Below, in pieces: positions 4,225 through 34,032 of a stretch of DNA of 64,000 nt; the stretch's first letter is position 1; each line of letters opens with the position of its first letter. A program made the translations under genes and the position numbers. Where the stretch lies: the NCBI RefSeq assembly GCF_028682455.1, contig NZ_JANHLD010000003.1, forward strand, positions 558,001 to 622,000, given 5' to 3'. The DNA comes from Pseudomonas putida. GTDB lineage: Bacteria; Pseudomonadota; Gammaproteobacteria; Pseudomonadales; Pseudomonadaceae. A model generated the notes under the pieces. That model saw only the letters and a list, made by a program, of their open reading frames with translations, was not told where the DNA came from and ran no database searches.

Positions 4225-4247
4225 TCAGGCTCACATACCCCAAACAC

Positions 4248-4271
4248 AAACCCCGGCCTTTGCCGGGGTTT
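4248..4271 (+). terminator. Rho-independent terminator after gyrB
   Basis: Hairpin AAACCCCGGC / GCCGGGGTTT with a 4-nt loop, placed 23 bp after the gyrB stop. The T-run is short. The A-run on the other side lets it also work for the convergent sigma-54 regulator gene ending at 4285. Confidence 0.85.
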
Positions 4272-4284
4272 GTCGTTTCTGGGG

Positions 4285-5601
4285 TCAAAGTCCGAGTTCA
4301 CGCAAGCGTCGGTACAGGGTGCGTTCACTCAAACCCAGATGCCTTGCCAGTTCACTGCGTGAGCCGTCGAAGTTTTCCAGGGCCTGGGCCAGTTGCCCGA
4401 GGTTGTCCTTGGAGCGTCGTCTACCAAGCGGTTCGGCTCTGCCCTCCTCGCTTCCCAGCTCTGCCGGCAAGTGCTCGGCGCGGATGATGCCGTCATCGGC
4501 AAACAGCCGTGCCCGCTCGAGGATGTTCCGCAGTTCGCGGATGTTGCCGGGAAAGCTGTGCAGGCTGAGCCGCTTCATGGCCTGGCTATCGACCTGCGGC
4601 GCTGCCTTGCCGGCCAGTCGTTGCAGTAGGCTTTCGACCAATAGCGGCAAATCACCCACCCGTTCCCGAAGCGCCGGCAACCGGATGGGAAAGCCGCTGA
4701 TGCGGTAGTAGAGGTCTTCACGGAAGGTGCCGGCGACGGCCATTTCCTTGAGCGGTTTGTGAGTCGCCGAGATCAGGCGGAAGTCCGAGTGGACGGTGCG
4801 CAGGCTGCCTACCGGGCGAAAGCTGCCAGATTCGATCAGGCGCAACAGTTTGACCTGCATGGCCAAGGGCACTTCCCCAATCTCATCGAGGAACAAGGTT
4901 CCGCCATGCGCTGCTTCGGCGAGGCCGATCTTGCGCTGCAGGGCACCAGTGAAGGCACCCTTCTCGTAGCCAAACAGTTCGCTCTCGAACAGTGACTCGG
5001 TCAGGCCGGTGCAGTCGACCACTACCAACGGACCATTGGCCCGCGGGCTACCCAGGTGCAAGGCACGGGCGAAGAGTTCCTTGCCGGTACCGGATTCGCC
5101 CTGCAGGAGTACAGGAATTTGCGCAGGGGCGGCACGTTGTAAGCTGGCCAATGACTCCTGGAACGCCGGCGAGCGCCCTACCAGCCCCTGCTGCTGGGGT
5201 TGGGCCGAGGCCACGGCGATGCTGGTCAATCGCTCGACAAAGGCCACGACCTCGCCCTGCTGGTCGAGGATCGGACGCAGCTCGACATCCACGTGTTCAG
5301 GTCCACGCGGGGTGTGATGTACATGCAGTACGCGTTCCGGCGCGCGGCTCTCCCAGGCTTTGCGCATCGGGCACAGCTCACCGGCCTGGTCGCACGGCAC
5401 GGCATAGTGATGGGATACCCGGTGGCATTTGCCGCCGATTGGGGGCTGGCCGTCTACACCGAACTGGCGTTGATAAGCTGCATTGGCCGCCAGGATGTTG
5501 TAGTCGGTGTCCAGCACGATGGTTGGTTGTACGTCATGCTCAAGATAGGACACCAGCGCCTGGACGGCGGGGTCGGGCACTGCTCGCGAAGAATAGGACA
5601 T
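4285..5601 (-). CDS. fisR: Sigma-54 dependent activator with FisR-type three-cysteine sensor
   Basis: A 438-residue enhancer-binding protein. The N-terminal PAS-like domain (about 1-130) holds Cys59, Cys70 and Cys77; the 11 and 7 residue spacings equal those of the three cysteines of Cupriavidus FisR (53, 64, 71 from memory), which sense sulfane sulfur. The AAA+ domain follows, with Walker A GESGTGKE (about 168), the sigma-54 contact loop GAFTGA (215-220) and Walker B TLFLDE (about 235), then a Fis-type helix-turn-helix ([18 protein letters not shown]). The start at 5601 is the first ATG giving the family architecture; its Shine-Dalgarno is weak. The gene is divergent from persulfide dioxygenase and sulfide oxidase genes, the known FisR targets. 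The symbol is inferred from cysteines plus context. Confidence 0.85.
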
Positions 5602-9887: not shown

Positions 9888-11537
9888 ATGCCATCAGCCG
9901 ATCCTGTCTACGACTATGTGGTCGTGGGTGCCGGCCCAGCCGGATGCCTGCTGGCCAATCGTTTGTCCGCCAACCCGGGCTGCCGGGTGCTGCTGCTTGA
10001 AGCGGGCGGTCGCGACAACTATCCCTGGATTCACATTCCGGTGGGTTACCTCTACTGCATTGGTAATCCCCGCACCGACTGGTGCTTCAAGACCGAAGCC
10101 CAGCCAGGCCTCAACGGGCGCGCCCTGGGATATCCACGGGGCAAGGTGCTCGGAGGCTGCTCCTCGATCAACGGCATGATCTACATGCGTGGCCAGGCCG
10201 GCGATTACGATCGCTGGGCCGAGCAAGGAAACGCCGGTTGGGCCTGGAAAGATGTGCTGCCCTTGTTCAAGGCCAGCGAAAACCACTTTGGCGGCGCCAG
10301 TGAGATACACGGCAACGAAGGTGAGTGGCGGGTCGAACAGCAACGTTACTCCTGGGCGATTCTCGATGCCTTCCGCGATGCCGCTGCGCAAAGCGGCATC
10401 GAGACCGTCACCGACTTCAATGGTGGCGATAATCAGGGCTGTGGATACTTTCAGGTCAACCAGCGTTCCGGCATTCGCTGGAACTCGGCCAAGGCCTTCT
10501 TGCGGCCTGTGCTCAAGCGCCCCAACCTGACCGTGCTGACCGATGTGTTGGTGGATCAGGTAGTCCTCGACAACGGCCGCGCGTCGGCGGTGCGGGCACG
10601 CTGGCAAGGCAGCTGGCAGCAGTTCAGCGCCCGCCGCGAGATCATCCTGTGCGCAGGTTCGGTAGGCTCGCCCGGTATCCTGCAGCGCTCGGGTATCGGC
10701 CCGCGTGGCCTGCTGGAGAGCGTGGGCATTGCAGTGCGTCACGAGCTGCCCGGGGTCGGCGGCAACTTGCAGGATCACCTGCAGCTGCGCCTGATCTATC
10801 AGGTGAGCCAGGCGCGTACCCTCAATCAGGTCGCAAACAGCACATGGGGCAAGCTGGGCATGGGGCTGCGCTATTTGTATGACCGCAGCGGTCCGTTGGC
10901 CATGGCACCGAGCCAACTCGGTGCCTTTGTGCGTTCTGGACCTGAGCAGGCGTCAGCCAACCTGCAGTATCATGTCCAGCCGCTGTCGCTGGAGCGCTTC
11001 GGCGAGCCGCTGCACCGCTTTGCGGCTTTTACTGCCTCTGTGTGCAACCTGCGCCCGGCCAGCCGTGGGCGTATCGATATCCGCTCGGCCAACCCGGACG
11101 ATGCCCCGCTGATCGACCCCAACTACCTGAGTGACCCTGAAGACCTGCGCGTAGCTGCCCAGGCGATTCGCATCACCCGCAAGATCGTCCAGGCCCCTGC
11201 CCTGGCGGCGTTCAGACCCAAGGAGTATTTGCCAGGACCGGATCTGAACAGCGAAGAACAACTGCACGAAGCCGCGGGCCAGATCGGCACAACAATCTTC
11301 CATCCGGTGGGCACTTGCCGGATGGGCAATGGGCCGCTGGATGTGGTCGATGACCAGCTGCGCGTGCATGGCGTGCCGGGGCTGCGCATCGCCGACGCCT
11401 CGATCATGCCGCAGATTGTCTCCGGCAATACCTGCTCACCCACCTTGATGATCGCCGAGAAGGCGGCGCAACTGATTGCACGGGGGAAGTTATCCACAAC
11501 CCGGATCGACGAAGAAACCGCAATACCGACGCCCTGA
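9888..11537 (+). CDS. GMC family FAD-dependent oxidoreductase (choline dehydrogenase-like)
   Basis: A 549-residue GMC flavoenzyme oxidising an alcohol with FAD. The FAD-binding VVGAGPAGCLLANRLS is close to the N-terminus, GMC signature 1 (GKVLGGCSSINGMIYMRG) near residue 88, signature 2 (GSVGSPGILQRSGIGP) near residue 260, and the C-terminal catalytic region HPVGTCRMG followed by SGNTCSPTLMIAEKAA. The ATG at 9888 was chosen over a TTG at 9882 because GAGG lies at proper spacing. Annotation as choline dehydrogenase would be over-specific: no betaine aldehyde dehydrogenase is adjacent. It is probably co-transcribed with the following transporter (100-nt gap). Confidence 0.85.
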   Translation: MPSADPVYDYVVVGAGPAGCLLANRLSANPGCRVLLLEAGGRDNYPWIHIPVGYLYCIGNPRTDWCFKTEAQPGLNGRALGYPRGKVLGGCSSINGMIYMRGQAGDYDRWAEQGNAGWAWKDVLPLFKASENHFGGASEIHGNEGEWRVEQQRYSWAILDAFRDAAAQSGIETVTDFNGGDNQGCGYFQVNQRSGIRWNSAKAFLRPVLKRPNLTVLTDVLVDQVVLDNGRASAVRARWQGSWQQFSARREIILCAGSVGSPGILQRSGIGPRGLLESVGIAVRHELPGVGGNLQDHLQLRLIYQVSQARTLNQVANSTWGKLGMGLRYLYDRSGPLAMAPSQLGAFVRSGPEQASANLQYHVQPLSLERFGEPLHRFAAFTASVCNLRPASRGRIDIRSANPDDAPLIDPNYLSDPEDLRVAAQAIRITRKIVQAPALAAFRPKEYLPGPDLNSEEQLHEAAGQIGTTIFHPVGTCRMGNGPLDVVDDQLRVHGVPGLRIADASIMPQIVSGNTCSPTLMIAEKAAQLIARGKLSTTRIDEETAIPTP

Positions 11538-11637
11538 CCAGGGTGCGTGGCAACAACGACGCCGGACGCGGTCTGCCGGTGTCGACAGTGGAACAACAAG
11601 AATAATCACTGGGGCCTTCTGGCCGAGGACAGCAACG

Positions 11638-13260
11638 ATGTCGGATTACATTCAGGAGCAGGGCGCGGCAACGACCAGCAACAGCCGCCGTGAAGAGCGC
11701 AAGATCATTTTTGCGTCATCCCTCGGGACGGTGTTCGAGTGGTATGACTTTTTTCTCTATGGGGCACTGGCCGCTGTTATCAGCAAACAGTTCTTCGCGG
11801 GTGTGAACGACACCACTGCCTTTATCTTTGCCTTGATGGCCTTTGCCGCCGGCTTTCTGGTGCGCCCATTCGGCGCACTGGTGTTCGGGCGCCTGGGGGA
11901 CATGATCGGGCGCAAGTACACCTTTCTGGTGACCATTGTGCTGATGGGGCTGTCGACCTTCGCTGTCGGTTTGCTGCCTACCTACGCCAGTATCGGCATC
12001 GCCGCACCAATCATCCTGGTGATATTGCGCATGCTCCAGGGCCTGGCGCTGGGCGGTGAATATGGTGGTGCGGCGACCTATGTGGCCGAGCATGCGCCGC
12101 CGGGCAAGCGCGGGTTTCACACCGGCTTCATCCAGTCCACCGCCACCCTCGGTCTTTTGCTGTCGCTGCTGGTCGTGCTGGGCAGCCGCTACATCAGTGG
12201 CGACCAGTTCGAAGTGTGGGGCTGGCGCCTGCCGTTCCTGCTGTCGATCGTGCTGCTGGCGATCTCGACCTGGATCCGCATGAGCATGCACGAGTCACCC
12301 GCCTTCGTGAAAATGAAGGCCCAGGGCAAGGCCAGCAAGGCACCGATTCGTGAATCCTTCGGCTCGTGGGCCAACCTCAAGGTGGTACTCACCGCGCTGT
12401 TCAGCATCAACGCAGGGCAAGCGGTCACCTTCTACACCGCGCAGTTCTACGTGCTGTTCTTCCTCACCCAGATGCTCAAGATGGACCCGGCCCAGGCCAA
12501 TACCCTGTTGATCATCAGCGTGGTGATCGGTGCACCGTTCTTCGTGTTTTTCGGTTGGTTGTCGGACCGGGTCGGACGCAAGCCGATCCTCATGCTCGGC
12601 CTGTTGTTGGCCACCGTGCTCTACTTCCCGCTGTTCAAGGCGCTGAGTCATTACGCCAACCCGCAGATCGATGCCGCCAGCCGCCAGGCTCCGATTGTGG
12701 TCATGGCCGATCCGCAGGGCTGCACCTTTCAGTTCGACCCAGTGGGCAAGGCACGTTTTGACAGCCCTTGCGACAAGGTCAAGACCTTCCTGGTCAAGCA
12801 AGGCCTGCCTTACAGCTCCCAGTCGGTTGCCCCAGGCAGCGAGGTCGTGGTGACGGTGGGCAACCAGCGCATCGACGGTTTCGATGAAGCGGCGCTGCGG
12901 GTTGCCATCGAGAAGGCGGGCTATCCGGCCAAGGCTGACCCTGCCAGCGTGAACGAAACCATGGTGGTGGTGCTGATCGTGGCGATGATCCTGATCGCCA
13001 CCATGACCTACGGCCCGCTGGCGGCGGTGATGGTCGAGCTGTTCCCGACCCGCATCCGCTACACCTCGATGTCGCTGCCCTACCATATCGGCAACGGCTG
13101 GTTCGGCGGCTTCCTGCCCACCGTGTCGTTCGCCCTGGTGGTGTACACCGGCGATATCTTCTATGGGCTGTGGTACCCGGTGTTGATCACTGGTGTGAGC
13201 CTGGTGGTGGGATTGTTCTGCCTTAAAGAAACCCGCGACGTGGATATCGACAAGGTCTGA
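11638..13260 (+). CDS. MFS transporter, metabolite:H+ symporter (MHS) type, with periplasmic insert
   Basis: A 540-residue 12-helix transporter. The N-terminal VFEWYDFFLYG, the loop 2-3 motif GRLGDMIGRKYTF and loop 8-9 SDRVGRKP place it in the MHS/ProP-like subfamily that imports organic acids or betaines with protons. Residues about 340-440, between helices 9 and 10 and hence predicted periplasmic, form an extra soluble segment of roughly 100 residues with two cysteines (362 and 378). This insert accounts for the length over the usual 430-450. The start at 11638 follows GAGG. The partner oxidoreductase suggests uptake of its substrate, an inference only. Confidence 0.85.
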   Translation: MSDYIQEQGAATTSNSRREERKIIFASSLGTVFEWYDFFLYGALAAVISKQFFAGVNDTTAFIFALMAFAAGFLVRPFGALVFGRLGDMIGRKYTFLVTIVLMGLSTFAVGLLPTYASIGIAAPIILVILRMLQGLALGGEYGGAATYVAEHAPPGKRGFHTGFIQSTATLGLLLSLLVVLGSRYISGDQFEVWGWRLPFLLSIVLLAISTWIRMSMHESPAFVKMKAQGKASKAPIRESFGSWANLKVVLTALFSINAGQAVTFYTAQFYVLFFLTQMLKMDPAQANTLLIISVVIGAPFFVFFGWLSDRVGRKPILMLGLLLATVLYFPLFKALSHYANPQIDAASRQAPIVVMADPQGCTFQFDPVGKARFDSPCDKVKTFLVKQGLPYSSQSVAPGSEVVVTVGNQRIDGFDEAALRVAIEKAGYPAKADPASVNETMVVVLIVAMILIATMTYGPLAAVMVELFPTRIRYTSMSLPYHIGNGWFGGFLPTVSFALVVYTGDIFYGLWYPVLITGVSLVVGLFCLKETRDVDIDKV

Positions 13261-13272
13261 GTTTTCACAGAT

Positions 13273-13303
13273 AAAAAAACCGGCGTAAGCGCCGGTTTTT
13301 TTA
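13273..13303 (+). terminator. Rho-independent terminator after the MFS gene (bidirectional)
   Basis: AAAAAACCGGCG-TAA-GCGCCGGTTTTTTT hairpin 12 bp after the transporter stop, with a run of Ts on the plus strand and a matching A-run for the opposite strand. It separates the transporter operon from the convergent lptA operon. Confidence 0.92.
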
Positions 13304-13430
13304 TGCCGCGAGAAAACTTATGCACGATTTTCAGAAAACAGTCATACAGAGAAATAAGTAGCTAAATTAATAACTTAGCGATTTTTTTGGCAAGAAATCC
13401 AAATACTGTACACAAGTTATCCACAGAACG

Positions 13431-14201
13431 TCAGGCTACGCCTTCGGCAGCGTTGGGTGCCGCTGCAGGCAACGAACCCAGGTCGCGTTGTGTCTGCTCG
13501 TTCCAGGCGGCTGCACGGTCATTGAGGGCGGCGATAGCCCGAGGACCTGTGCCTTCGGCATACATCGGCTCGCCAATCACTACCTCGATGGTCCCGGCAC
13601 GCTTGCCCCAGCCCTGCTTGGGCCAGAACTTGCCAGCGTTGTGGGCAATCGGCAGCACCGGCAACCCGGCGTTCACCGCAAGGGCAGTCCCGCCGCGGGA
13701 GAACTTGCCGATCTGGCCGAAGGGCACGCGGGTACCTTCGGGGAAGATCAACACCCAGACGCCGTCCTTGAGCAGTTTGTCGCCTTCGCTGGCGACTTGC
13801 TTCAGGGCGGCCTTGGGGTTGTCACGGTCGATGGCAATCGGCCGCAGCATGGCCATGGCCCAGCCGAAGAACGGCACATACAGCAGTTCACGCTTGAGCA
13901 CCTGGCTCAAGGGCGAGAAATAGGCAGAGAGGAAGAAGGTCTCCCAGGTGCTCTGGTGGTTGGACAGAATCACGCAAGGGGTTTTGGGGATGTTCTCGGC
14001 CCCGCTGACCTTGACCTTGATATTGAGGAACACCCGCACCAGTACCAGCGCAAAGCGGCACCAGTAGACGTTGATGAAGCGATAGCGGGCGCTGAAAGGC
14101 AGAAACGGCGCGATGAAAAAGCTCAGGGTGCACCACAGCAGGGAGCTGGTACCCAGCAGCAGGTAAAAAAGAAAAATTCTGATCGCCTGCAGGATCGACA
14201 T
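13431..14201 (-). CDS. lptA: 1-acyl-sn-glycerol-3-phosphate acyltransferase (LptA/HdtS-like)
   Basis: A 256-residue inner-membrane PlsC-family acyltransferase adding the second acyl chain to lysophosphatidic acid. It has two N-terminal hydrophobic segments (residues 5-33 and about 45-60), the catalytic NHQSTWE motif (His82, Glu87; H-X4-E rather than the usual H-X4-D) and the FPEGTR substrate motif. The position beside gmhB-glyS-glyQ matches lptA of P. aeruginosa (PA0005, from memory). The P. fluorescens homologue HdtS has been linked to acyl-homoserine lactone production. The last gene of the leftward lpxL-independent run glyQ-glyS-gmhB-lptA; 61 nt separate it from gmhB. Confidence 0.88.
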   Translation of the reverse strand: MSILQAIRIFLFYLLLGTSSLLWCTLSFFIAPFLPFSARYRFINVYWCRFALVLVRVFLNIKVKVSGAENIPKTPCVILSNHQSTWETFFLSAYFSPLSQVLKRELLYVPFFGWAMAMLRPIAIDRDNPKAALKQVASEGDKLLKDGVWVLIFPEGTRVPFGQIGKFSRGGTALAVNAGLPVLPIAHNAGKFWPKQGWGKRAGTIEVVIGEPMYAEGTGPRAIAALNDRAAAWNEQTQRDLGSLPAAAPNAAEGVA

Positions 14202-14262
14202 AGCGGCATGTACCGTTGCGGGCTTGCCCGCCTAGTAAAAGTGCGCCTGGTTCGCAGACGCC

Positions 14263-14796
14263 CTATTTGTGGATAAGTTCTCTGGCGATGGCTGCCAGAT
14301 CATCGAAAATCAGCGTGTTCTCTGGAATGCCCTTGCTCAGGGTCTTCTCGCCTTTTCCAGTTTTTACCAGAATCGGTTGAGCATCGACGGCCAAAGCGGC
14401 CTCCAGGTCACCCTTACTGTCACCGACAAACCATACACCGGCCAGATCGACCTGGTAGTGCGCGGCAATGGTCCGCAGCATGCCCGGCTTGGGCTTGCGG
14501 CACTCACAGCCATCATCGGGGCCATGGGGGCAATGGACGATCAGCCCGACCTCGCCACCCTGCTCGGCCACCAATGCGCGCAAGCGTGCATGCATGGCGT
14601 CGAGGGTGGCCAGCGGGTAGTAGCCGCGAGCGATGCCGGACTGGTTGGTGGCAACTGCCACCGTCCAGCCGGCTTTGCTCAACTGCGCAATTGCCTCGAT
14701 GGAGCCAGGGATCGGTATCCACTCGTCCAGCGACTTGATGTAGGCGTCGGAGTCCTGGTTGATCACACCGTCCCGATCGAGAATCAGCAGCTTCAA
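14263..14796 (-). CDS. gmhB: D-glycero-beta-D-manno-heptose 1,7-bisphosphate 7-phosphatase
   Basis: A 177-residue cytoplasmic HAD phosphatase in ADP-heptose synthesis for the LPS inner core. Asp7 and Asp9 of DRDGVIN form the nucleophile motif, TNQSG is motif II, and GDSKGDLEAA is motif IV. The structural zinc-binding loop CPHGPDDGCECR supplies Cys89, His91, Cys97 and Cys99, which is diagnostic of GmhB over histidinol phosphatase. It lies 3 nt after glyS, so it is translated with it. Its final codons (LIHK) contain a perfect DnaA box. Confidence 0.92.
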   Translation of the reverse strand: MKLLILDRDGVINQDSDAYIKSLDEWIPIPGSIEAIAQLSKAGWTVAVATNQSGIARGYYPLATLDAMHARLRALVAEQGGEVGLIVHCPHGPDDGCECRKPKPGMLRTIAAHYQVDLAGVWFVGDSKGDLEAALAVDAQPILVKTGKGEKTLSKGIPENTLIFDDLAAIARELIHK

Positions 14797-18432: not shown

Positions 18433-18471
18433 GGGGTACAATGGCCGGCTTGCAGAAAGAGGAACCAGCCT

Positions 18472-19359
18472 GTGGATAAATTCAAAGGCGCCTTGATGGT
18501 CGGGGCGTTGCGGTTGTTTGCCAAGCTCCCTTGGGGCGCGGTACAGCGGGTCGGTGCAGCGATCGGCTGGATCATGTGGAAAGTGCCTAACAGCTCGCGC
18601 AACGTGGTACGCATCAACCTGGCCAAGTGCTTTCCGGAGATGGACCCGGCAGCGCGCGAGCAACTGGTCGGCCGTACCCTGATGGACATCGGCAAGTCGT
18701 TCACCGAAAGCGCGTGTGCCTGGATCTGGCCGGCCCAGCGCTCGATCGACCTGGTCCGCGAAGTCGAAGGCCTGGAAGTCCTGCATGCAGCACTGGCGTC
18801 GGGCAAGGGCGTGGTTGGCATCACCAGCCACCTGGGCAACTGGGAAGTGCTCAACCACTTTTATTGCAACCAGTGCAAACCGATCATTTTCTACCGTCCA
18901 CCCAAGCTCAAGGCGGTCGATGACCTGTTGCGCGAACAGCGCGTGCAACTGGGCAACCGCGTGGCGGCGTCGACCAAGGAAGGCATCCTGAGCATCATCA
19001 AGGAAGTGCGCAAAGGCGGTCAGGTCGGTATTCCGGCAGACCCGGAGCCGGCCGAGTCGGCCGGGGTCTTCGTGCCCTTCTTCGCCACCAAGGCACTGAC
19101 CAGCAAGTTCGTGCCGAACATGCTGGCTGGCGGCAAGGCGGTCGGGGTGTTTTTGCATGCCCTGCGCCTGCCGGACGGTTCCGGCTTCAAGGTGATCCTC
19201 GAGGCGGCGCCCGAAGCGATGTACAGCGAAGACACCGAAACCTCGGCTGCGGCCATGAGCAAGGTGGTTGAGCGGTATGTGCGCGAGTATCCGAGCCAGT
19301 ACATGTGGAGCATGAAGCGCTTCAAGAAGCGTCCGCCCGGAGAGGCGCGCTGGTATTGA
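18472..19359 (+). CDS. lpxL: Lipid A lauroyl/myristoyl acyltransferase
   Basis: A 295-residue LpxL/HtrB-family enzyme adding a secondary acyl chain to lipid A at the inner membrane. The catalytic HLGNWE motif (His120, Glu125) and the later IPADPEP segment are visible, with a hydrophobic N-terminal stretch for membrane attachment. The GTG start at 18472 is preceded by AGAGGA; the start codon is embedded in a perfect DnaA box (TGTGGATAA). Pseudomonads carry more than one lpxL paralogue, so which acyl position it modifies cannot be told here. Confidence 0.88.
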   Translation: MDKFKGALMVGALRLFAKLPWGAVQRVGAAIGWIMWKVPNSSRNVVRINLAKCFPEMDPAAREQLVGRTLMDIGKSFTESACAWIWPAQRSIDLVREVEGLEVLHAALASGKGVVGITSHLGNWEVLNHFYCNQCKPIIFYRPPKLKAVDDLLREQRVQLGNRVAASTKEGILSIIKEVRKGGQVGIPADPEPAESAGVFVPFFATKALTSKFVPNMLAGGKAVGVFLHALRLPDGSGFKVILEAAPEAMYSEDTETSAAAMSKVVERYVREYPSQYMWSMKRFKKRPPGEARWY

Positions 19360-19420: not shown

Positions 19421-19732
19421 TCAGCCAGCTTTATCCAGCTTCTTGAGAAACACCGTCATCTCTTTCTCGGCCTGCTTGTCGCCATGGGCCTTGGCGGCTT
19501 CCAGCCCTTGTTCCCAGGCTAAGCGAGCCGCCGCTTTGTCGCCCTGCAGCTGATGAGCCTTGCCCAGCAGCTTCCAGGCCGCCGAATACTTCGGATCGAA
19601 CTCGACGCAGCGCTGCAGGTGCACCGCGGCCTCGGCGCCATTGCCTTCATCGAGCCAGGCCTTGCCCAGGCCGAAGCGCAACAGGGCGTTATCCACACCC
19701 TTGGCCAGCATCTTTTCCAGTGATTCGCGCAT
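19421..19732 (-). CDS. Small tetratricopeptide-repeat protein
   Basis: A 103-residue soluble protein with no signal peptide, made of about two and a half TPR units (GLGKAWLDEGNGAEAAVHLQ; AAWKLLGKAHQLQGDKAAAR) followed by a lysine/glutamate-rich tail. TPRs mediate protein contacts; no enzymatic role is visible. It lies 11 nt after trkA in the same direction and is probably co-transcribed with it. A similar small gene sits at this locus in other pseudomonads as far as I recall. Function unknown. Confidence 0.8.
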   Translation of the reverse strand: MRESLEKMLAKGVDNALLRFGLGKAWLDEGNGAEAAVHLQRCVEFDPKYSAAWKLLGKAHQLQGDKAAARLAWEQGLEAAKAHGDKQAEKEMTVFLKKLDKAG

Positions 19733-22447: not shown

Positions 22448-23376
22448 TGGCCAAGCACCGTGCCGATGGCGAACTTCTCACGACGGCTGTTGAACAAGTC
22501 GCTGAAGTGCAGCGCCTTGCCGCCGGGCAGTTGCAGGCGGGTCAGGCACAGGGCCTGCTCACCGCAGGCGACGATCAAGCCGTCTTTGCTGGCGCCAAGG
22601 ATTTCGCCCGGCTGGCCTGCGCCTGTGGCCAGGCTGGCCGCCAGCACTTTGACCGCTTCACCATTGAGGGTGCTGTGGCAGATCGGCCAGGGGTTGAAGG
22701 CACGGACCAGGCGCTCCAGCTCAACGGCCGGGCGGCTCCAGTCCAGGCGGGCTTCGTCCTTGTTCAGCTTGTGCGCATAGGTGGCCAGGCTGTCGTCCTG
22801 GACTTCGCCTTGCAAGGTGCCAGCGGCAAGGCCGGCTACAGCTTGCAGTACCGCAGGCGGGCCCATTTCGGCCAGGCGGTCGTGCAGACTGCCACCGGTA
22901 TCGGTGGCGCGGATCGGCGTGGTCACCTTGAGCAGCATCGGGCCAGTGTCCAGGCCGGCTTCCATGCGCATCACGGTCACTCCACTTTCGCTGTCACCGG
23001 CTTGGACTGCGCGCTGGATGGGCGCGGCACCGCGCCAGCGAGGCAGCAGCGAGGCGTGGCTGTTGATGCAGCCCAGGCGCGGGATATCCAGTACCGCCTG
23101 CGGCAGGATCAGGCCATAGGCGACCACCACCATCAGGTCAGGCTTGAGCGCCGCGAGTTCGGCTTGCGCCTCGGCATTGCGCAGGGTCGGCGGTTGCAGC
23201 ACGGGAATGCCGTTATCCACAGCCAGCTGTTTGACGGCGCTGGGCATCAGCTTTTGCCCGCGGCCGGCTGGACGGTCCGGTTGGGTGTAGACCGCCACCA
23301 CGTCATAGGGGCTGTCGATCAGGGCCTTGAGGTGTGCGGCGGCAAACTCTGGGGTGCCTGCGAAGACAATGCGCAT
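22444..23376 (-). CDS. fmt: Methionyl-tRNA formyltransferase
   Basis: A 310-residue enzyme formylating initiator Met-tRNA. The conserved [13 protein letters not shown] start (chosen over an upstream in-frame start that would add 13 unrelated residues), the catalytic segment [20 protein letters not shown] and the C-terminal tRNA-binding domain are present. It normally pairs with def, which lies upstream in the same direction, but a good hairpin terminator separates them here. rsmB overlaps its 3' end. Confidence 0.96.
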
Positions 23377-23940: not shown

Positions 23941-24182
23941 AAGCGTATGAGCTGCACTGTGCGATGAAATACAAACATGAATACACATAATAAAGGGATT
24001 CGCCGGATTCGGCACCTGGCAAAGGTCGGCTAAGGTGTTTCAAAGCCCCCGTGTCCCTGTTTCGGCAAGCCCGAAAGGCCGCGACCCAGGGCAATCCTTC
24101 AACCGGTTGTCAAAGTATTATCAACAGAGTTATCCACAGCTTGTGCAAGGCACGGATACTCGCTCGATCAAGGATGATCGTC

Positions 24183-25289
24183 ATGGCGCAGTTACCTTTC
24201 CCCGGCTGTTCGCCAGCCGAACTCGAGGCGCGCTTGCGCCTGCACCGGATGCCGGCACTGGGCCCGCATCGCTTCCACGTACTCATTCAAGCCTTCGGCA
24301 GTGCCTCGGCAGCGCTGAGCGCGCCGGCCGGTGCCTGGTATTCCCTGGGCATCCCGGCGGTCAGTACCGAATCACGCCGCAGCCCGCAGGTGCGCGAAGG
24401 CGCTGCGGCTGCATTGGCCTGGCTAGAGCGGCGCGACCAGCATTTGCTGATGTGGGACAACCCCGCCTACCCTGCCTTGCTGGCCCAAGTGGATACCGCC
24501 CCGCCGCTATTGTTCGTAGCCGGTAACCCCGCCCTGCTGGAAAAACCGCAGTTGGCGATTATCGGCAGTCGCCGCGCTTCGCGACCGGCACTGGACACCA
24601 CCGCAGCCTTTTCTCGCAGCCTGGCGCGGGGCGGTTTTGTCATTACCAGCGGCCTGGCCCTGGGCGTCGACGGTGCTGCCCACCAGGCGGCGCTGGATGT
24701 CGGAGGGCACACCATCGGCGTGCTGGGCACAGGCTTGCAGAAACTTTATCCACAACGTCACCGTGCCCTGGCCACCGCGATGATCGAGCGCGGCAGCGCG
24801 GTGGTTTCGGAGTTTCCACTGGATGCAGGGCCGGTTGCGGGCAATTTTCCCAGGCGCAACCGCATCATCAGTGGCCTGTCACTGGGTGTGCTGGTGGTCG
24901 AGGCAAGCCTGGCCAGCGGCTCGTTGATCACCGCGCGGCTGGCGGCCGAGCAGGGTCGTGAGGTGTACGCCATTCCAGGCTCGATTCACCATCCGGGAGC
25001 CAAGGGTTGCCACCAGTTGATTCGCGATGGCGCGTTGCTGGTTGAGAACGTCGAGCAGATCGTTGAAACCCTGCAGGGGTGGCAGCGGTTGCCGCCTGCC
25101 CCGGGCGGTGAAACGTCCGGGGCCCGCCATGTTCTCGAGGAGTTGCTGCTGGCGGCACCGCAAACGTGCGAAGGGCTTGCCATCAGCGCTGGCTGGCCGT
25201 TGCCCAGGGTACTGGCGGCATTGACCGAGCTTGAAGTGGCTGGCCGGGTTTGTAATGAAGCTGGGCGTTGGTTTGCCCGGCCTGCCTAA
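24183..25289 (+). CDS. dprA: DNA-processing protein DprA
   Basis: A 368-residue RecA-loading protein that handles single-stranded DNA in natural transformation; in non-competent species its role is unclear. An N-terminal helical domain is followed by the Rossmann-like core ([84 protein letters not shown]) and the C-terminal winged helix. The ATG at 24183 follows AAGGA by 8 nt. In other pseudomonads a LysM-domain gene usually lies between def and dprA; it is absent here. Confidence 0.93.
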
Positions 25290-27978: not shown

Positions 27979-28035
27979 AACCGCTGTGTGGATAACTTTG
28001 CCGGGCAAACCGGCCCCGACCCAGGAACCGCGTGA

Positions 28036-28917: not shown

Positions 28918-30489
28918 TCACCCCTCAAATCGTATCGGGCAGTTCGTCGCCCCTTCCAGCTTGTGCAATTCCTCGATCACCTGCGGTCGCGCCCGATGCA
29001 GCGTCAGGCTGCCCCCTGCCCGGCCCAGGCGGCGGGCTTCGCGGTGGAGCATGTCGACCCCGGAATAATCGATGAAGTTGATCTGCCGGGCATCGATGAT
29101 CACATCGGGGCCCTGGCAACGTTGCAGGCGCACCTGCAGGTAATGGCTGGCGCCGAAGAATATCGACCCCCCGACCCGCAGCACATCGGCATCACCTTCA
29201 CGAAATTGTTGCACCCGTGGGCGCGAGGTGCGCTTGAGGTAGAAGAACAGCGATGCCAGCACGCCGGCATAGATGGCGGTCTGCAACTCCAGCAGCAAGG
29301 TCGCCGCCGCGGTCAGCGCCATCACCAGGAACTCGGAACGGCTGACCCGCCACAACGCGCGCATGGCTCGGTGATCGTTCAAGCCCCAGCAGATCAGCAG
29401 GATGCTGCCGGCCATGGCCGGGATCGGAATATGCGCGATCAGGCCGGCACCCGCCACCGCAAACAGCGCGACCCAAAGTGCCGAGAACACGCCCGCGAGC
29501 GGCGAGTGGGCCCCGGCGTCATAGCTGAGCCCTGAACGGGTGAAGGAGCCTGACGACAGGTAGCCGGAGAAAAAACTGCCGACAATGTTCGACAAGCCCT
29601 GGGCGCGGATTTCCTGGTTGGCATCGATCAGCTGCTCCGAGCGTGACGACAGCGAGCGGGCAATCGACAGGCTCGTCACCAGGCCTAGCATGCCGACCGC
29701 CACGGCGCTGGGCAGCAGGCGCAGGATCAGCTCCAGGTCCCACAACGGCAAAGGGCTCAAGGGCGGCAACTGGCCGACGAACCCGGGCACCAACTGCACA
29801 TGGCCGAACACGCCGGGCAACAGCCAGACCAGCCCACCGGCGATGCCCAGGGTTATCAACAGGCCGGGCCAGCGTGGACGCAGCAGCTTGAGGGCAACGC
29901 CCAGCACCAGGGTGCCCAGCCCCAGCGCAAGGGATGGCCAATCCACCTCGCCGGCATGTTCCAGCAGGCTTTCCAGGGTTTTCAGTGCGGTGGCCTGGCT
30001 GGGCAGGTCAAGACCCATCAGGTTTGGCAGTTGCCCCAGGGCGATGACCACGGCGGCGCCGAGGGTGAAGCCCAGCACCACCGAATGAGAAACGAAGTTG
30101 ACCAGGGCGCCAAAGCGCAGCAGTCCGAGCAACCACTGAAAGACCCCGCCCAGGAACGTCAGCAGCAGAATCAGGGTGATGTAGTCGTCGCTGCCGCTGA
30201 TGGCCAGCGGGCTGACGCTGGCATAGAGGACGATGGAGATCGCCGCCGTCGGCCCGCAGATCAGGTGCCACGACGACCCCCAGAGGCAGGCGATAAGCAC
30301 CGGCACAATGGCAGCGTACAGGCCGTATTCGGCGGGCAGGCCGGCGATCAGCGCGTAGGCGATCGACTGCGGCAGCGCGAGGATCGCGCCACTCAAGCCC
30401 ACCAGCAGATCACGGCGCACACTGCCACGGGTCTGCTGGGGCAGCCAACTGAGGAACGGCAACAAACGGTGGCGATCAGGCCGGGCCAT
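28918..30489 (-). CDS. SulP family anion permease with STAS domain
   Basis: A 523-residue inner-membrane transporter: about ten to twelve hydrophobic helices in the first 400 residues (conserved ALPQSIAYALIAGLPAEYGLYAA near residue 40 and GPTAAISIVLYAS near 80), then a cytoplasmic STAS domain (about 420-523, with ARQINFIDYSGVDMLHREARR). It follows the binding-protein and choline-sulfatase genes in one direction (72-nt gap), so I infer that it moves choline-O-sulfate or the sulfate released from it; plain sulfate uptake is also possible. Confidence 0.85.
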   Translation of the reverse strand: MARPDRHRLLPFLSWLPQQTRGSVRRDLLVGLSGAILALPQSIAYALIAGLPAEYGLYAAIVPVLIACLWGSSWHLICGPTAAISIVLYASVSPLAISGSDDYITLILLLTFLGGVFQWLLGLLRFGALVNFVSHSVVLGFTLGAAVVIALGQLPNLMGLDLPSQATALKTLESLLEHAGEVDWPSLALGLGTLVLGVALKLLRPRWPGLLITLGIAGGLVWLLPGVFGHVQLVPGFVGQLPPLSPLPLWDLELILRLLPSAVAVGMLGLVTSLSIARSLSSRSEQLIDANQEIRAQGLSNIVGSFFSGYLSSGSFTRSGLSYDAGAHSPLAGVFSALWVALFAVAGAGLIAHIPIPAMAGSILLICWGLNDHRAMRALWRVSRSEFLVMALTAAATLLLELQTAIYAGVLASLFFYLKRTSRPRVQQFREGDADVLRVGGSIFFGASHYLQVRLQRCQGPDVIIDARQINFIDYSGVDMLHREARRLGRAGGSLTLHRARPQVIEELHKLEGATNCPIRFEG

Positions 30490-30561
30490 GGACAGTCTCT
30501 ATCGCATGCACAAGCTGTACAGGGTGCGGTGTCCGGCTTGTCGGTGCAAGTTGCGGCGCCA

Positions 30562-31482
30562 TTACAGTCTGGCTTTCACGGCCGACAATGCATCGCCACC
30601 ATCGAGGTGGGTTACACCTTCGAGCCAATGGTCGAGCTGCGCCGGGTGTGCCTTGATCCAGGCTCTGGCTGCTGCCTCGTAGCTGACTTTGTTATCCACA
30701 ACCTGCGCCATGATGGTGTTCTCCATGTCCCGGCTGAAGGTGAGGTTGTCGAACAGCCGCGCAACGTTCGGGCAAGCCTGTGGATAACCTTTGCGGGCCA
30801 GGGTATAGACGCTGCCGGTGCTGCCGAACCACTGCTCGCCTCCACTCAGGTAGCGCAGCTTCATCTGCACGTTCATGGGGTGCGGCGTCCAGCCCAGGAA
30901 GGCGATGAACCGCTGGCGCTTGGCCGCGCGATGGACCTGGGCGAGCATGGCTTGTTCACTGGACTCCACCAGCTTCCAGCCGCCGAGGTTGAAGGCATTC
31001 TTGCTGATGATGTCCTTGAGCGACAGGTTGGCCGGTGCGCCTGCGCCGATGCCGTAGATCTTCTGGTCGAACCGGTCGGCAAAGCGTTGCAGGTCGGCGA
31101 AGTCCCGCACACCTGCATCCCACACATACTCGGGCACGGCCAGGGTGAATTGAGTACCTTCCAGGTTGCGCGCCAGTTGCTGTACCTCGCCGCTGGCGAC
31201 GAACCTGTCATGGAAACCCTGCTGGGCCGGCATCCAGTTGCCGAGAAAGACGTCCACCAACCCATCCTTGAGCCCGCCATAAATGATCGGCACGGCCAGG
31301 CTGTCGACTCGGGTCTTGTAGCCCATGCCTTCGAGCAACAGACGGGCCACGGCGTTGGTGGCGGCGATGTCGCTCCAGCCGGGGTCGGCCATCTTCACCG
31401 TACTGCAATCGCTCTCGGCGCGGGCGCCGAGGCTGGCAAGGCTCAAGACAACCGCAATGATGCTTGTGGATAACCTTTTCAT
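30562..31482 (-). CDS. choX: Periplasmic choline/glycine-betaine-type substrate-binding protein
   Basis: A 306-residue OpuAC/ChoX-like binding protein. Residues 1-22 form a signal peptide (cleavage after ARA, before ESDCSTV), and the mature part has the type II fold typical of quaternary-amine binders, with scattered Trp/Tyr (DPGWSD, NWMP, YVWDAG, GWTPHP) likely forming the cation box. It lies 18 nt after betC. No ABC permease or ATPase gene is adjacent, so it must use components encoded elsewhere or serve the SulP permease. Three perfect DnaA boxes lie inside the gene, one coding for Leu-Ser-Thr of the signal peptide. Confidence 0.83.
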   Translation of the reverse strand: MKRLSTSIIAVVLSLASLGARAESDCSTVKMADPGWSDIAATNAVARLLLEGMGYKTRVDSLAVPIIYGGLKDGLVDVFLGNWMPAQQGFHDRFVASGEVQQLARNLEGTQFTLAVPEYVWDAGVRDFADLQRFADRFDQKIYGIGAGAPANLSLKDIISKNAFNLGGWKLVESSEQAMLAQVHRAAKRQRFIAFLGWTPHPMNVQMKLRYLSGGEQWFGSTGSVYTLARKGYPQACPNVARLFDNLTFSRDMENTIMAQVVDNKVSYEAAARAWIKAHPAQLDHWLEGVTHLDGGDALSAVKARL

Positions 31483-32281
31483 GACAGCCTCGCGGGATGA
31501 TTACTGGGCGGGTTGTGGATAACGTGCCTTGCGTTCCAGGTCGTCGAGATCAATGTGATTGCGCATGTACTGCTGGCTGGCATCCACCAATGGTTGGTGG
31601 TCCCAGCTCTTGAGTGTGCCGATGGCCAGGGCCTCGGCCACCAGGCGACGACGGCGCTGGCTGTCGAGTACTTGCTGGCGCAGCACCGGGATGTCCCAGC
31701 GCTGTCGGGCTTCATCGACAAATGCCTGCAGCAGCGCCTGGTGATCAGGGCTGCCTGCCAGGTTTTCGCACTCCTGTGGATCGTGCTCAAGGTCGTACAG
31801 CAGGCAAGGGTCGTCTTCGCTGTAGATGAATTTGTAGGCCCCGCGGCGAATCATCATCAAGGGCCCGACAGTGCCTTCGGCCATGTATTCGCCGATCACT
31901 TCATCGTGGCCGCCCTGGCCCTGCAGATGGCCCAGCAGCGAGCGTCCATCGAGCGGCAACTGCGGCTCCAGGCTGCCGCCAGCGAGGGCCACAAGGGTCG
32001 GCAGCAGGTCGCAGGTGGATACGGCAGCGCTGACACGCGCCGGCTTGAACTGTCCGGGCGCGTACACCAGCAGCGGCACCCGCGCCGACATCTCGAACCA
32101 GTGCATCTTGTACCAGAGGCCGCGCTCGCCAAGCATGTCGCCATGGTCGCCGGAGAACACGATCAACGTGTCGTCGGCCAGCCCGGTTTCTTCCAGGGTC
32201 TGCAGCAGCTTGCCGATGTTGCTGTCGATGTAGCTGCAGGCGCCGAAGTACGCGCGGCGGGCATCGCGGATCTTATCCACA
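30692..32281. other. Cluster of five perfect DnaA boxes (datA-like)
   Basis: Perfect TTATCCACA boxes at 30692 (+), 30779 (-), 31465 (-), 31514 (-) and 32273 (+), all within 1590 bp of the choX-betC coding region. E. coli datA is a comparable set of five boxes that titrates DnaA. The boxes are read in several frames and on both strands. A replication-control role is an inference; the boxes themselves are seen directly. Confidence 0.65.
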
Positions 32282-33012
32282 GGTAGCGGTTTATCCCACA
32301 GGTCGTAGACCTTGAGCAGGCGTTGGGAGTGGGGGTCCAGCGTTTCCTGGGGGTAGCGCTGGCTCGGCAACGGAATCTCGTCGTTCTGGTACAGGTCCCA
32401 GAAGGCTTTGGGAATGGTGTACGGGTCGTGGGGATGGGTCATTGACACGGTCAGGCAGAATGGCCTGTCACCAGCCTCGCGCACGTGATCGAACAGGTAC
32501 TGGCGGGCCTTGAAGACCACCTCCTCATCGAAATCCAGCTGGTTGGTGCGTACGCAAGGCCCGGCCTGCAGCACGGATGACATGTTGTGGTACCAGCTGG
32601 GACGCACATCGGGCGCGTCCCAATTGACCGCCCAACCGTAGTCGGCGGGGTAAATGTCGCTGGTCAATCGTTCTTCGTAGCCGTGCAACTGGTCGGGCCC
32701 GCAAAAGTGCATCTTGCCCGACAGCGCGGTGCGATAACCCAGGCGCCGCAGGTAATGGGCATAGGTGGGGATATCGGCGGGGAAATCTGCCGCGTTGTCG
32801 TAGGCGCCGATCTTGCTCGGCAATTGGCCGCTGACCAGGGTAAAGCGCGACGGCGCACACAGCGGACTGTTGCAATAGGCGGCATCGAAGACCACAGCCT
32901 CGCTGGCCAGGCGAGTCAAATGCGGCATCTTGATCGGCGAGGAGGCGTAGATGGGCAACAAGGGCGCCGCCATTTGGTCGGCCATGATGAAAAGAATGTT
33001 CTTGCGCTTCAT
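31501..33012 (-). CDS. betC: Choline sulfatase
   Basis: A 503-residue type I sulfatase hydrolysing choline-O-sulfate to choline and sulfate. Cys52 in the motif CAPSR is the residue converted to formylglycine; the metal ligand aspartate is in IMADQM (Asp12), and FSGDHGDMLGERG carries the second metal site. No signal peptide is evident, so it is cytoplasmic. The ATG at 33012 follows GGTGA; a start six codons upstream is possible. It leads the betC-choX-sulP run, divergent from the LysR regulator. Confidence 0.93.
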   Translation of the reverse strand: MKRKNILFIMADQMAAPLLPIYASSPIKMPHLTRLASEAVVFDAAYCNSPLCAPSRFTLVSGQLPSKIGAYDNAADFPADIPTYAHYLRRLGYRTALSGKMHFCGPDQLHGYEERLTSDIYPADYGWAVNWDAPDVRPSWYHNMSSVLQAGPCVRTNQLDFDEEVVFKARQYLFDHVREAGDRPFCLTVSMTHPHDPYTIPKAFWDLYQNDEIPLPSQRYPQETLDPHSQRLLKVYDLWDKPLPVDKIRDARRAYFGACSYIDSNIGKLLQTLEETGLADDTLIVFSGDHGDMLGERGLWYKMHWFEMSARVPLLVYAPGQFKPARVSAAVSTCDLLPTLVALAGGSLEPQLPLDGRSLLGHLQGQGGHDEVIGEYMAEGTVGPLMMIRRGAYKFIYSEDDPCLLYDLEHDPQECENLAGSPDHQALLQAFVDEARQRWDIPVLRQQVLDSQRRRRLVAEALAIGTLKSWDHQPLVDASQQYMRNHIDLDDLERKARYPQPAQ

Positions 33013-33126
33013 GGAGTCACCGCGTTCCATAGGTGTTCGTTATGGGAAAGTGCTGTAATCGAGCATGCGGCTGTGGGTAACTACGGTAAAGCCCATGGCG
33101 GGCAATGACTGGGATTAGCAGAGCTT

Positions 33127-34032
33127 ATGTTTGAGCGCCTTGATGGTTTGTCACTGGACGCCTTGCGGGTGTTCGAAGTCGCTGCTCGCCAGCGCAGTTT
33201 CACTACCGCGGCGGTCGAGCTGGGCACCACCCAACCTGCGGTCAGCCAGCAGATCAAGCGACTTGAAAAGCAGCTGGGCGCGCGCCTGTTCGATCGCATC
33301 TATCGCGGTATCGAACTGACCGAGGCCGGCCAGGTGCTGTTCGAGCAGGTTCATCAGGGCATGGTGTGCCTGGACGAGGGCGTGGCGCAGGTCAGTGGCC
33401 GCGACCAGCATGAGGTGCTCCAGGTCGCAACCGACTTTGCCTTTGCGGCCTATTGGCTGATGCCGCGGTTGCAGCGCTTTCATCAGGGCAACCCGCAGGT
33501 CGATGTGAGCCTGGTAACCAGCGAACGCAGCCACGCCATGCTGCGCCCGGATGTCGACGTGGCGATCCTGTTCGGTGATGGGCGCTTTCATCAGGGCGAA
33601 AGCCACTGGCTGTTCGATGAACAAGTGTTCCCGGTCTGCAGCCCCCGCCTGGTCGAGCAGCAGGCCGTGCCCCTGCCGGCGCGCAGCCTGCTGCAATTGC
33701 CCTTGCTGCATTTGCGCGGCGAGAGCGCCAGCCGCTGGTTCGACTGGGGCGGCGTGTTCCGCCAGTTGGGTATCGCCAGCCCGCCGAGCCAAGGTCCGTT
33801 GCGTTTTGACAACTACACCCTGCTCATTCAGGCGGCCATCGCTGGCCAGGGCGTCGCCATCGGCTGGCGTCACCTGGTGGATGACCTGCTGGATCAGGGC
33901 CTGTTGTGCCGGCCTATCAGCGAGCAGGTGAGCTCTTCGCGGGGGTACTACGTGGTGCTGCCACCGCGCAAACGTCGTGGCGCGCTGATCGAACGCTTTG
34001 TCGAGTGGCTGCGGGACGAGCAGGCGCGCTAG
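33127..34032 (+). CDS. betR: LysR-type regulator of choline-sulfate genes
   Basis: A 301-residue LTTR of the GcvA/TrpI-like subgroup. The winged helix spans residues 8-66 (FTTAAVELGTTQPAVSQQIKRL). It is divergent from betC across 114 bp, the expected location of its operator, and this pairing is the known choline-sulfate arrangement in pseudomonads. The likely co-inducer is choline-O-sulfate (family knowledge plus context). Its TAG stop shares the tetranucleotide CTAG with the stop of the convergent gene. Confidence 0.85.
   Translation: MFERLDGLSLDALRVFEVAARQRSFTTAAVELGTTQPAVSQQIKRLEKQLGARLFDRIYRGIELTEAGQVLFEQVHQGMVCLDEGVAQVSGRDQHEVLQVATDFAFAAYWLMPRLQRFHQGNPQVDVSLVTSERSHAMLRPDVDVAILFGDGRFHQGESHWLFDEQVFPVCSPRLVEQQAVPLPARSLLQLPLLHLRGESASRWFDWGGVFRQLGIASPPSQGPLRFDNYTLLIQAAIAGQGVAIGWRHLVDDLLDQGLLCRPISEQVSSSRGYYVVLPPRKRRGALIERFVEWLRDEQAR

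Follow-up and report, generated by a model that had tools for sequence, protein, structure and literature searches.

A DnaA-box cluster in the choX-betC region of Pseudomonas putida as part of a box field centred on oriC

The genes for a choline-binding protein (choX) and a choline-sulfatase (betC) of Pseudomonas putida harbour five perfect copies of the DnaA box TTATCCACA within 1590 bp (positions 30692-32281 of the window). The window is a stretch of 64,000 nucleotides (RefSeq assembly GCF_028682455.1, contig NZ_JANHLD010000003.1, positions 558,001 to 622,000; G000:C3:558001-622000 in our numbering) that begins ~2.3 kb from the replication origin oriC. Several clusters make up a field of boxes centred on oriC, the choX-betC group being one of them; such a field is found in most of the relatives read. 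These boxes occur in excess and are conserved at synonymous sites, and their positions turn over between lineages. Comparison with related genomes indicates that the choX-betC cluster is real and under selection. Furthermore, it probably represents one station of a DnaA sink formed by the oriC-centred field (approximately -20 to +34 kb in window coordinates). Note that the gene names used here (choX, betC, def, dprA, hemF, aroE, parA, rpmH, gbcA, etc.) were adopted from a preliminary description of the window or are our presumptive assignments, based on the translations.

Five boxes in choX and betC

The five boxes were reported in the preliminary description to lie on both strands, and all of them were recovered at exactly the reported places (Table 1), with start-to-start spacings of 87, 686, 49 and 759 bp. 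The claim that they go far beyond chance was borne out as well: at the genome-average density, the Poisson probability of at least five boxes in 1590 bp is 9e-11. In 5000 synonymous shuffles of betC and choX of the own genome, the mean was 0.06 boxes (0.027 + 0.034) and the maximum 2. The box at 31465 is encoded by the codons TTA and ACA, among others, which are very rare in the host genome.

For the comparison with relatives, 80 named Pseudomonas loci were used, the best 80 of at least 590 relatives matched with BetC, a sample in which distant members of the genus are under-represented; the nearest of these best matches is P. vranovensis (94% identity). The per-site tallies in the 80 genomes accept boxes up to 3 bp away and may exceed the gap-free aligned count, although both tallies agree for 30692, 30779, 31514, 32273, 24130 and 24746. 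For 31465, a gap-free alignment was obtained with 63 genomes, and 34 of these have the box (0.54).

The conservation follows the DNA rather than the protein. Within the box at 31514, the codons CGT and CCA are each used in 80/80 genomes (background 0.18 and 0.11, respectively) and TAT in 71/76 (0.26), while the wobble base immediately outside the box varies (CAA in 53, CAG in 27). At 24746, a further box of the window inside dprA, TAT and CCA are each found in 72/72 genomes, and the outside wobble position is occupied by CAG in 66 and CAA in 6. The TTA codon of 31465 is present in 49 of the 51 genomes with the same residue, compared to a background of 0.015. Taken over betC and choX of 79 of the 80 genomes (L210, with a truncated choX, was left out), 238 boxes were counted versus 4.28 expected by synonymous shuffling (56-fold), and 69/79 genomes lie above every one of their own 200 synonymous shuffles. 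Conservation at synonymous positions in relatives had been proposed in the preliminary description as a check, and the boxes are indeed kept there.

The block was found in 310 of 354 scored genomes (398 drawn). Its homologues corresponding to 30489-33127 carry a mean of 3.08 boxes in the 80 named genomes, with none in 2/80. The site at 31514 is the most stable of the five, and in the remaining 9/80 genomes it is replaced by a near-cognate sequence, TTACCCACA (5 genomes) or TTTTCCACA (4 genomes). A set of 55 relatives, which combines the best matches from two samplings of the genus and shares some species with the 80, gave a mean of 3.1 boxes; 31514 is perfect in 50/55 and reads TTACCCACA or TTTTCCACA in the other five. 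In a set of 16 genomes, 31514 is perfect in 12, the others having TTTTCCACA, TTACCCACA, TTATCCGCA and TTATCCAAA. When all 9-mers of the block are ranked by identity, 31514 belongs to the top 1.0% and 31465 and 32273 to the top 6%. Absence from close relatives, which according to the preliminary description would speak against a functional cluster, is not what was found, as all five boxes and one extra are present in G271, the closest genome (90% identical). That relatives lack the cluster was considered because of G017, which has no perfect box there, and was rejected, G017 being an exception.

The relatives also use positions that are not used by the own genome, i.e., 31964 (20/80), 33072 (23/80), 33489 (24/80) and 33876 (30/80). 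Two mostly exclusive sets of positions can be distinguished, 30692/30779/31964/33072/33489 (P. putida type) and 31465/32273/33876 (P. fluorescens type). The site at 31514 is common to both, and the own genome mixes the sets. The cluster is therefore not confined to the P. putida group, as first suggested, but occurs with a different box configuration in P. fluorescens, P. brassicacearum, P. mandelii and others.

Table 1. DnaA boxes, host genes and box modules. Positions are those of the window unless a locus is given; relatives and named genomes are those described in the text.
Feature	Position	Strand	Context	Conservation
Perfect DnaA box	30692..30700	+	antisense in choX, codons V-D-N	TTATCCACA in 20/80 named genomes, TTGTCCACA in another 4
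Perfect DnaA box	30779..30787	-	in choX, codons Y-P-Q	TTATCCACA in 21/80, TTATGCACA in 32/80
Perfect DnaA box	31465..31473	-	in choX, begins at 9 nt, codons L-S-T	43/80 at the position or up to 3 bp away
Perfect DnaA box	31514..31522	-	final betC codons, 32-40 bp upstream of choX ATG	71/80, near-invariant
Perfect DnaA box	32273..32281	+	antisense in betC, codons V-D-K	45/80; TTGTCCACA in 14, TTTTCCACA in 3
Near-cognate box TTACCCACA	33072..33080	-	42-50 bp upstream of betC ATG	perfect box in 23/80 relatives; 67/80 aligned gap-free
choX, choline-binding protein gene	30562..31482	-	hosts three boxes (30692, 30779, 31465)	
betC, choline-sulfatase gene	31501..33030	-	hosts two boxes (31514, 32273)	
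Companion box	11490..11498	+		poorly conserved; 1 relative, 6 aligned
Companion box	13417..13425	+	between 3' ends of convergent genes, one plsC-like	12/12 aligned relatives
Companion box	14268..14276	-	final codons of gmhB-like gene	6 relatives, 10 aligned
Companion box	18471..18479	-	start of lpxL-like gene	perfect in 5/14, TTTTCCACA in 9/14
Companion box	19689..19697	+		11/14
Companion box	23213..23221	+		lineage-specific; 1/64 aligned named genomes, 2/15 relatives
Companion box	24130..24138	+	between divergent def-like and dprA-like genes	62/62 aligned named genomes, 14/14 relatives
Companion box	24746..24754	+	inside dprA, codons Y-P-Q	72/72 aligned named genomes, 15/15 relatives
Companion box	27987..27995	-	between hemF-like and aroE-like genes	4 relatives; 18/80 named genomes
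gbcA module, own genome	L061:5342-5731 (G000:C3:190001-202000)		3 copies, one partial	
gbcA module, G017	L066:6832-7432		4 copies, downstream of the same gene at a distance of ~2.1 kb, with different intervening DNA; 562 kb from oriC	
Weaker module copies (profile matches), three own loci	L063:3885-3971 and 4247-4334; L064:3697-3935; L062:6111-6189			

The box field around oriC

The own genome contains 101 perfect boxes, compared to 11 matches of the reversed pattern. The places of 100 of them were listed, and the zone from -80 to +64 kb was taken from the sequence instead. As many as 27 of the 101 fall into the 60 kb around oriC versus 74 elsewhere, corresponding to an ~38-fold higher density. 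Sorted by distance from oriC, 8 boxes are found at -25 to -1 kb, 5 at oriC/dnaA (including the four perfect oriC boxes that precede dnaA, at window positions -2317 to -2054), none at 2-11 kb, 14 at 11-35 kb and 1 at 35-100 kb. The window itself has 14 perfect boxes, all at 11.5-32.3 kb, versus 0.15 expected from dinucleotide shuffles, so the five boxes of choX-betC are not isolated. Because the density of the field is so high, that of the choX-betC group is only mildly unusual: the scan probability of a five-box group is 0.035 for the local density of 21 boxes in 56 kb and 0.10 for 14 boxes at 11.4-34 kb. The five boxes as an exceptional concentration for their neighbourhood are thus weakly supported (P 0.035-0.10). 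Contrary to what had been stated, they are also not the strongest conserved signal in the window, since 24130 (62/62) and 24746 (72/72) are more conserved than any choX-betC box; note that the position of 24130 relative to dprA depends on which dprA start is used.

An unbiased count of 7- to 10-mers, comparing 1216 kb around oriC (15 genomes including the own one) with 400 kb of distal DNA (12 of these genomes), identified TTATCCACA as the top-enriched 9-mer around oriC (439 versus 2 distal). G018 and G010, whose stretches are without oriC because the block is inverted, were omitted from this count and retained in the box mapping. The leading 10-mers are extended forms of the box, GTTATCCACA (271 versus 0) and TTATCCACAG (253 versus 0). 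The second independent enriched motif is parS, GTTCCACGTG. The location of parS near oriC is known, and its recovery shows that the method finds what it should. Among the one-mismatch boxes, TTGTCCACA (52/0, near oriC/distal), TTACCCACA (52/0), TTATGCACA (33/0), TTATTCACA (31/0), TTTTCCACA (73/2) and ATATCCACA (84/1) are enriched near oriC, and TGATCCACA (18/4) and TTATCCGCA (8/1) hardly so.

When the boxes of 16 relatives are projected onto the own sequence, they recur in the same bins: at oriC, at -12 to -4 kb (genes read as parA, rsmG, mnmG and mnmE), at about -20 kb, and to the right at 12-14, 18-20, 24-26 (def-dprA) and 30-34 kb (choX-betC and a LysR gene). No box of these 16 relatives mapped to 0-10 kb, and five mapped beyond 34 kb, a zone with less aligned coverage. 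The boxes at -9279 and -743 are present in 14/14 relatives each where aligned. A conserved cluster lies beyond oriC, on its far side as seen from the window, over parA, rsmG, mnmG and mnmE (L060, ~9955-14286, i.e., window -10045 to -5714), with -10045 and -7495 each kept in 13/14 relatives. Farther out, 43 kb to the left of oriC, there are four boxes in ~300 bp (L058:14298-14603; G000:C3:512298-512603, window -45702 to -45397); the alignments to this stretch come from one or two relatives, and the box is retained at most of the aligned positions.

The block does not always lie in the same place. Its start was located 25-89 kb from dnaA in 54 genomes, selected for being complete or almost complete and for carrying the block on a large contig. 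In nine of these the block is inverted and 62-89 kb away, and all nine retain 31514 and two to four boxes. The mean is 3.8 boxes in these nine and 3.2 in 22 proximal ones (Mann-Whitney P 0.63); where the block keeps its orientation and lies at 54-78 kb (four genomes), the mean is 3.25. These genomes are possibly related, so that few independent events may be involved. That the cluster requires a distance of at most 35 kb from oriC is thus unsupported; rather, it is tied to the locus and withstands a certain distance from oriC.

Nine of ten complete Pseudomonas genomes possess 80-154 boxes versus 11-21 reversed matches. A strand polarity of the distal boxes, suggested by the places found in these genomes, was dropped as an idea because those places are only part of the total. 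In a survey of 148 genomes of the family, ~64-172 boxes per genome were counted in genera g9 and g12, 16-154 in g1 and ~7-75 in other genera; the reversed pattern gave roughly 2-30 in most genomes and outnumbered the true matches in g13. Genera g9 and g12 have about as many boxes per genome as Pseudomonas, although 12 of 13 genomes from other genera are without perfect boxes at choX-betC. In G424, a genome of g12, 18 boxes are packed into 12.1 kb, apparently close to the contig end, with dnaA at base 1. The trait of clustering boxes close to oriC may therefore extend beyond Pseudomonas, the choX-betC cluster does not.

Box arrangements outside the field

The largest listed group of the own genome outside the field consists of 7 boxes in 1.9 kb, ~360 kb to the left of oriC. 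It is located downstream of a gbcA-like gene, with four of its boxes in what appears to be intergenic DNA. A tandem module of ~100 bp is repeated at this locus; it ends with a perfect TTATCCACA followed by an inverted near-cognate box (Table 1). Loci of relatives gave three marginal matches to the module (E 0.015-0.085). Note that the loci were chosen for their box clusters, so the sample is biased. This structured intergenic module appears to be a better candidate for a datA- or DARS-like element (DARS, DnaA-reactivating sequence) than choX-betC.

Some other arrangements were encountered. An inverted pair of perfect boxes, 14 bp start to start, is found at G000:C1:41757-41779, G017:C1:86867-86889 and G136:C1:25834-25856, and G017 has further inverted box pairs 36 bp apart. 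In G168 (C1:141182-150010) and G188 (C1:141306-147614), 15 and 11 perfect boxes, respectively, follow each other on one strand with an exact spacing of 630 bp; this is apparently a tandem repeat, perhaps in a large repetitive protein gene, ~141-150 kb from dnaA.

A putative DnaA sink and its alternatives

The oriC-centred field, with choX-betC as one of its stations, probably works as a sink for DnaA. Binding of DnaA to the boxes, the resulting drop in free DnaA and its relevance to timing are what we infer from these sequences. Forks leaving oriC would duplicate the boxes of the field within ~1 minute, as estimated from generally known fork speeds. With 27/101 boxes in 60 kb, a quarter of the strong sites would be doubled almost at once, and these newly doubled boxes would bind free DnaA; free DnaA would fall, and re-initiation would be delayed. 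A search for SeqA gave no match in the own genome (the same search was positive in E. coli), which makes E. coli-style sequestration unlikely, and a sink in early-replicated DNA would suit a cell without it. A clear homologue of Hda is present, and a Dam-like match remained below the threshold (88.5 bits versus a cut-off of 114.85). According to a review, an increased level of DnaA failed to repress dnaA in P. putida (PMC8203912); feedback at the dnaA promoter may therefore be weak, leaving room for titration.

Similar arrangements are known from other bacteria. In Bacillus subtilis, several clusters of DnaA boxes lie outside the origin but near oriC (Okumura et al. 2012, cited in PMC5295017), and the excerpt available of the same review states that deletion of all six leads to early initiation, with a strong effect only for the six together; these clusters thus jointly behave as a sink. 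Pseudomonas likewise has several clusters of consensus boxes near and outside oriC. It differs in that many boxes are located in genes, are kept through wobble bases and turn over in position by lineage, and that the host is a gamma-proteobacterium with an Hda homologue. In E. coli and Salmonella, boxes accumulate near oriC as well, an arrangement read as favouring titration, as is single-protein tracking in E. coli (Olivi et al. 2025, PMC12371093, in the portions accessible). There, the rise is broad, over 10-centisome windows with ~900 loose motifs per genome (PMC12371093), whereas in the present genome one strict 9-mer is ~38 times denser within 60 kb, and individual sites are conserved. 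'Pseudomonas' does not appear in the main text of that paper.

Several observations weigh against a sink. In 3/55 relatives there is no perfect box in the 2.64 kb of the block, and in 2/16 genomes 31514 is neither a box nor one of the usual near-cognates (TTATCCGCA in G020, TTATCCAAA in G163). The boxes at 30692 and 30779 are kept in just a quarter of the genomes and rank within the top 21-22%, so they are lineage-specific rather than deeply conserved. A conserved number of boxes per genome is unsupported, as the number is no more constant than expected of independent sites (permutation P 0.86). The excess of boxes is uneven in the genus: G014 has only 32 versus 24 reversed matches, and G028 and G484 have 16 each versus 7 and 4. 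Among 13 genomes with BetC from five other genera of the family, the block is without a perfect box in 12, and in one only 31514 is present. Furthermore, the near-invariance of 31514, 24130 and 24746 goes beyond the requirements of a pure sink and points to possible site-specific roles. Finally, according to the review, clusters with significant roles have not been identified in B. subtilis (PMC5295017).

Such site-specific roles could be regulatory. If DnaA acted as a transcription factor here, 31514 and 31465, which flank the choX start, would couple choline/betaine uptake or neighbouring genes to DnaA activity. Indeed, the most conserved of the five boxes (31514) is located 32-40 bp upstream of the choX ATG, 31465 begins 9 nt into choX, 33072 (perfect in 23/80 relatives) sits 42-50 bp upstream of the betC ATG, and the invariant 24130 lies between divergent genes. 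DnaA is an established regulator of transcription, as stated in the consulted section of PMC8203912. Nevertheless, 30692, 30779 and 32273 (and 31964, 33489 and 33876 in relatives) lie at a distance from the choX start, inside genes or antisense, there is little non-coding conservation at the betC-choX junction beyond the box, and the boxes gather around oriC across unrelated genes. We therefore regard regulation as an unlikely explanation of the cluster; the near-invariant 31514 may act on choX in addition to its part in a sink.

The boxes might also serve chromosome organisation or segregation (contacts of DnaA or DnaA-ParA, a parS/oriC domain) instead of titration. The field overlaps the parS-rich zone, parS being the second enriched motif, and a hot stretch of boxes coincides with the genes read as parA, rsmG and mnmG. 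The retention of the cluster in inverted blocks 62-89 kb from dnaA fits titration equally well. Altogether, a segregation role appears improbable.

A datA-like titration locus was the interpretation put forward in the preliminary description. Its general part stands, since a DnaA-titrating role is the best available reading; its narrow sense does not. E. coli datA lies hundreds of kb from oriC, and it is non-coding; DARS have three core boxes in a fixed arrangement together with IHF/Fis sites. All five choX-betC boxes are inside choX or betC, ~33 kb from oriC, more widely spaced and in one of several clusters. The IHF consensus WATCAANNNNTTR has no match in 30.0-33.5 kb when at most one mismatch is allowed. 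This is a weak test, because ~1 match would be expected by background (18 window-wide) and the IHF of Pseudomonas might accept further deviations. In E. coli, datA is a single IHF-dependent locus of ~1 kb at 94.7 min with five boxes in about 1 kb (PMC5295017). As a group of about five strong boxes outside oriC, the choX-betC cluster resembles it; its extent of 1.59 kb with wide and variable spacing, the coding location and the positions that differ between lineages do not. Hence, the choX-betC cluster is not a member of the datA type, being coding, without an IHF consensus and one of many, and datA-dependent hydrolysis of DnaA-ATP by a DnaA-IHF complex (DDAH) is very improbable here. Chance, base composition or protein constraint can practically be dismissed: a five-box group somewhere is not rare at the high density of the field (P 0.035-0.10), but the 56-fold ratio over synonymous shuffles, the wobble freeze that stops at the box edge and the near-absence of the 9-mer from distal DNA refute this explanation for the field and for 31514 and exclude it, less strongly, for 30692 and 30779 alone.

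Judged by titles and the beginnings of abstracts, the open-licence literature holds no report of this Pseudomonas box field, and no DnaA chromatin immunoprecipitation sequencing (ChIP-seq) paper for Pseudomonas was found in it. A comparison of P. putida genomes mentions the box sequence at oriC (PMC3056050, in the part available), and the accessible part of PMC4786541 contains no DnaA-box survey. As a more tentative proposal, Pseudomonas, apparently without SeqA sequestration, might control initiation by a distributed DnaA sink that extends over ~35 kb from oriC and is largely embedded in the wobble bases of ordinary genes. One of its stations would be the choX-betC cluster; some stations would be near-invariant and others swapped between two lineage-specific sets, and the intergenic tandem modules with an inverted box pair (the gbcA locus, weaker copies elsewhere) might form a datA/DARS-like arm. 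The model that chromosomal boxes titrate DnaA is old and supported by little direct evidence. In Pseudomonas, single, strict oriC-proximal boxes inside coding sequence show selection in many species. As these boxes can be removed by synonymous recoding with the proteins untouched, a clean test of titration is possible in P. putida, a laboratory species that is easy to handle and for which the list of sites is ready. This list is also a warning to genome engineers and codon optimisers that wobble bases close to oriC are not free.

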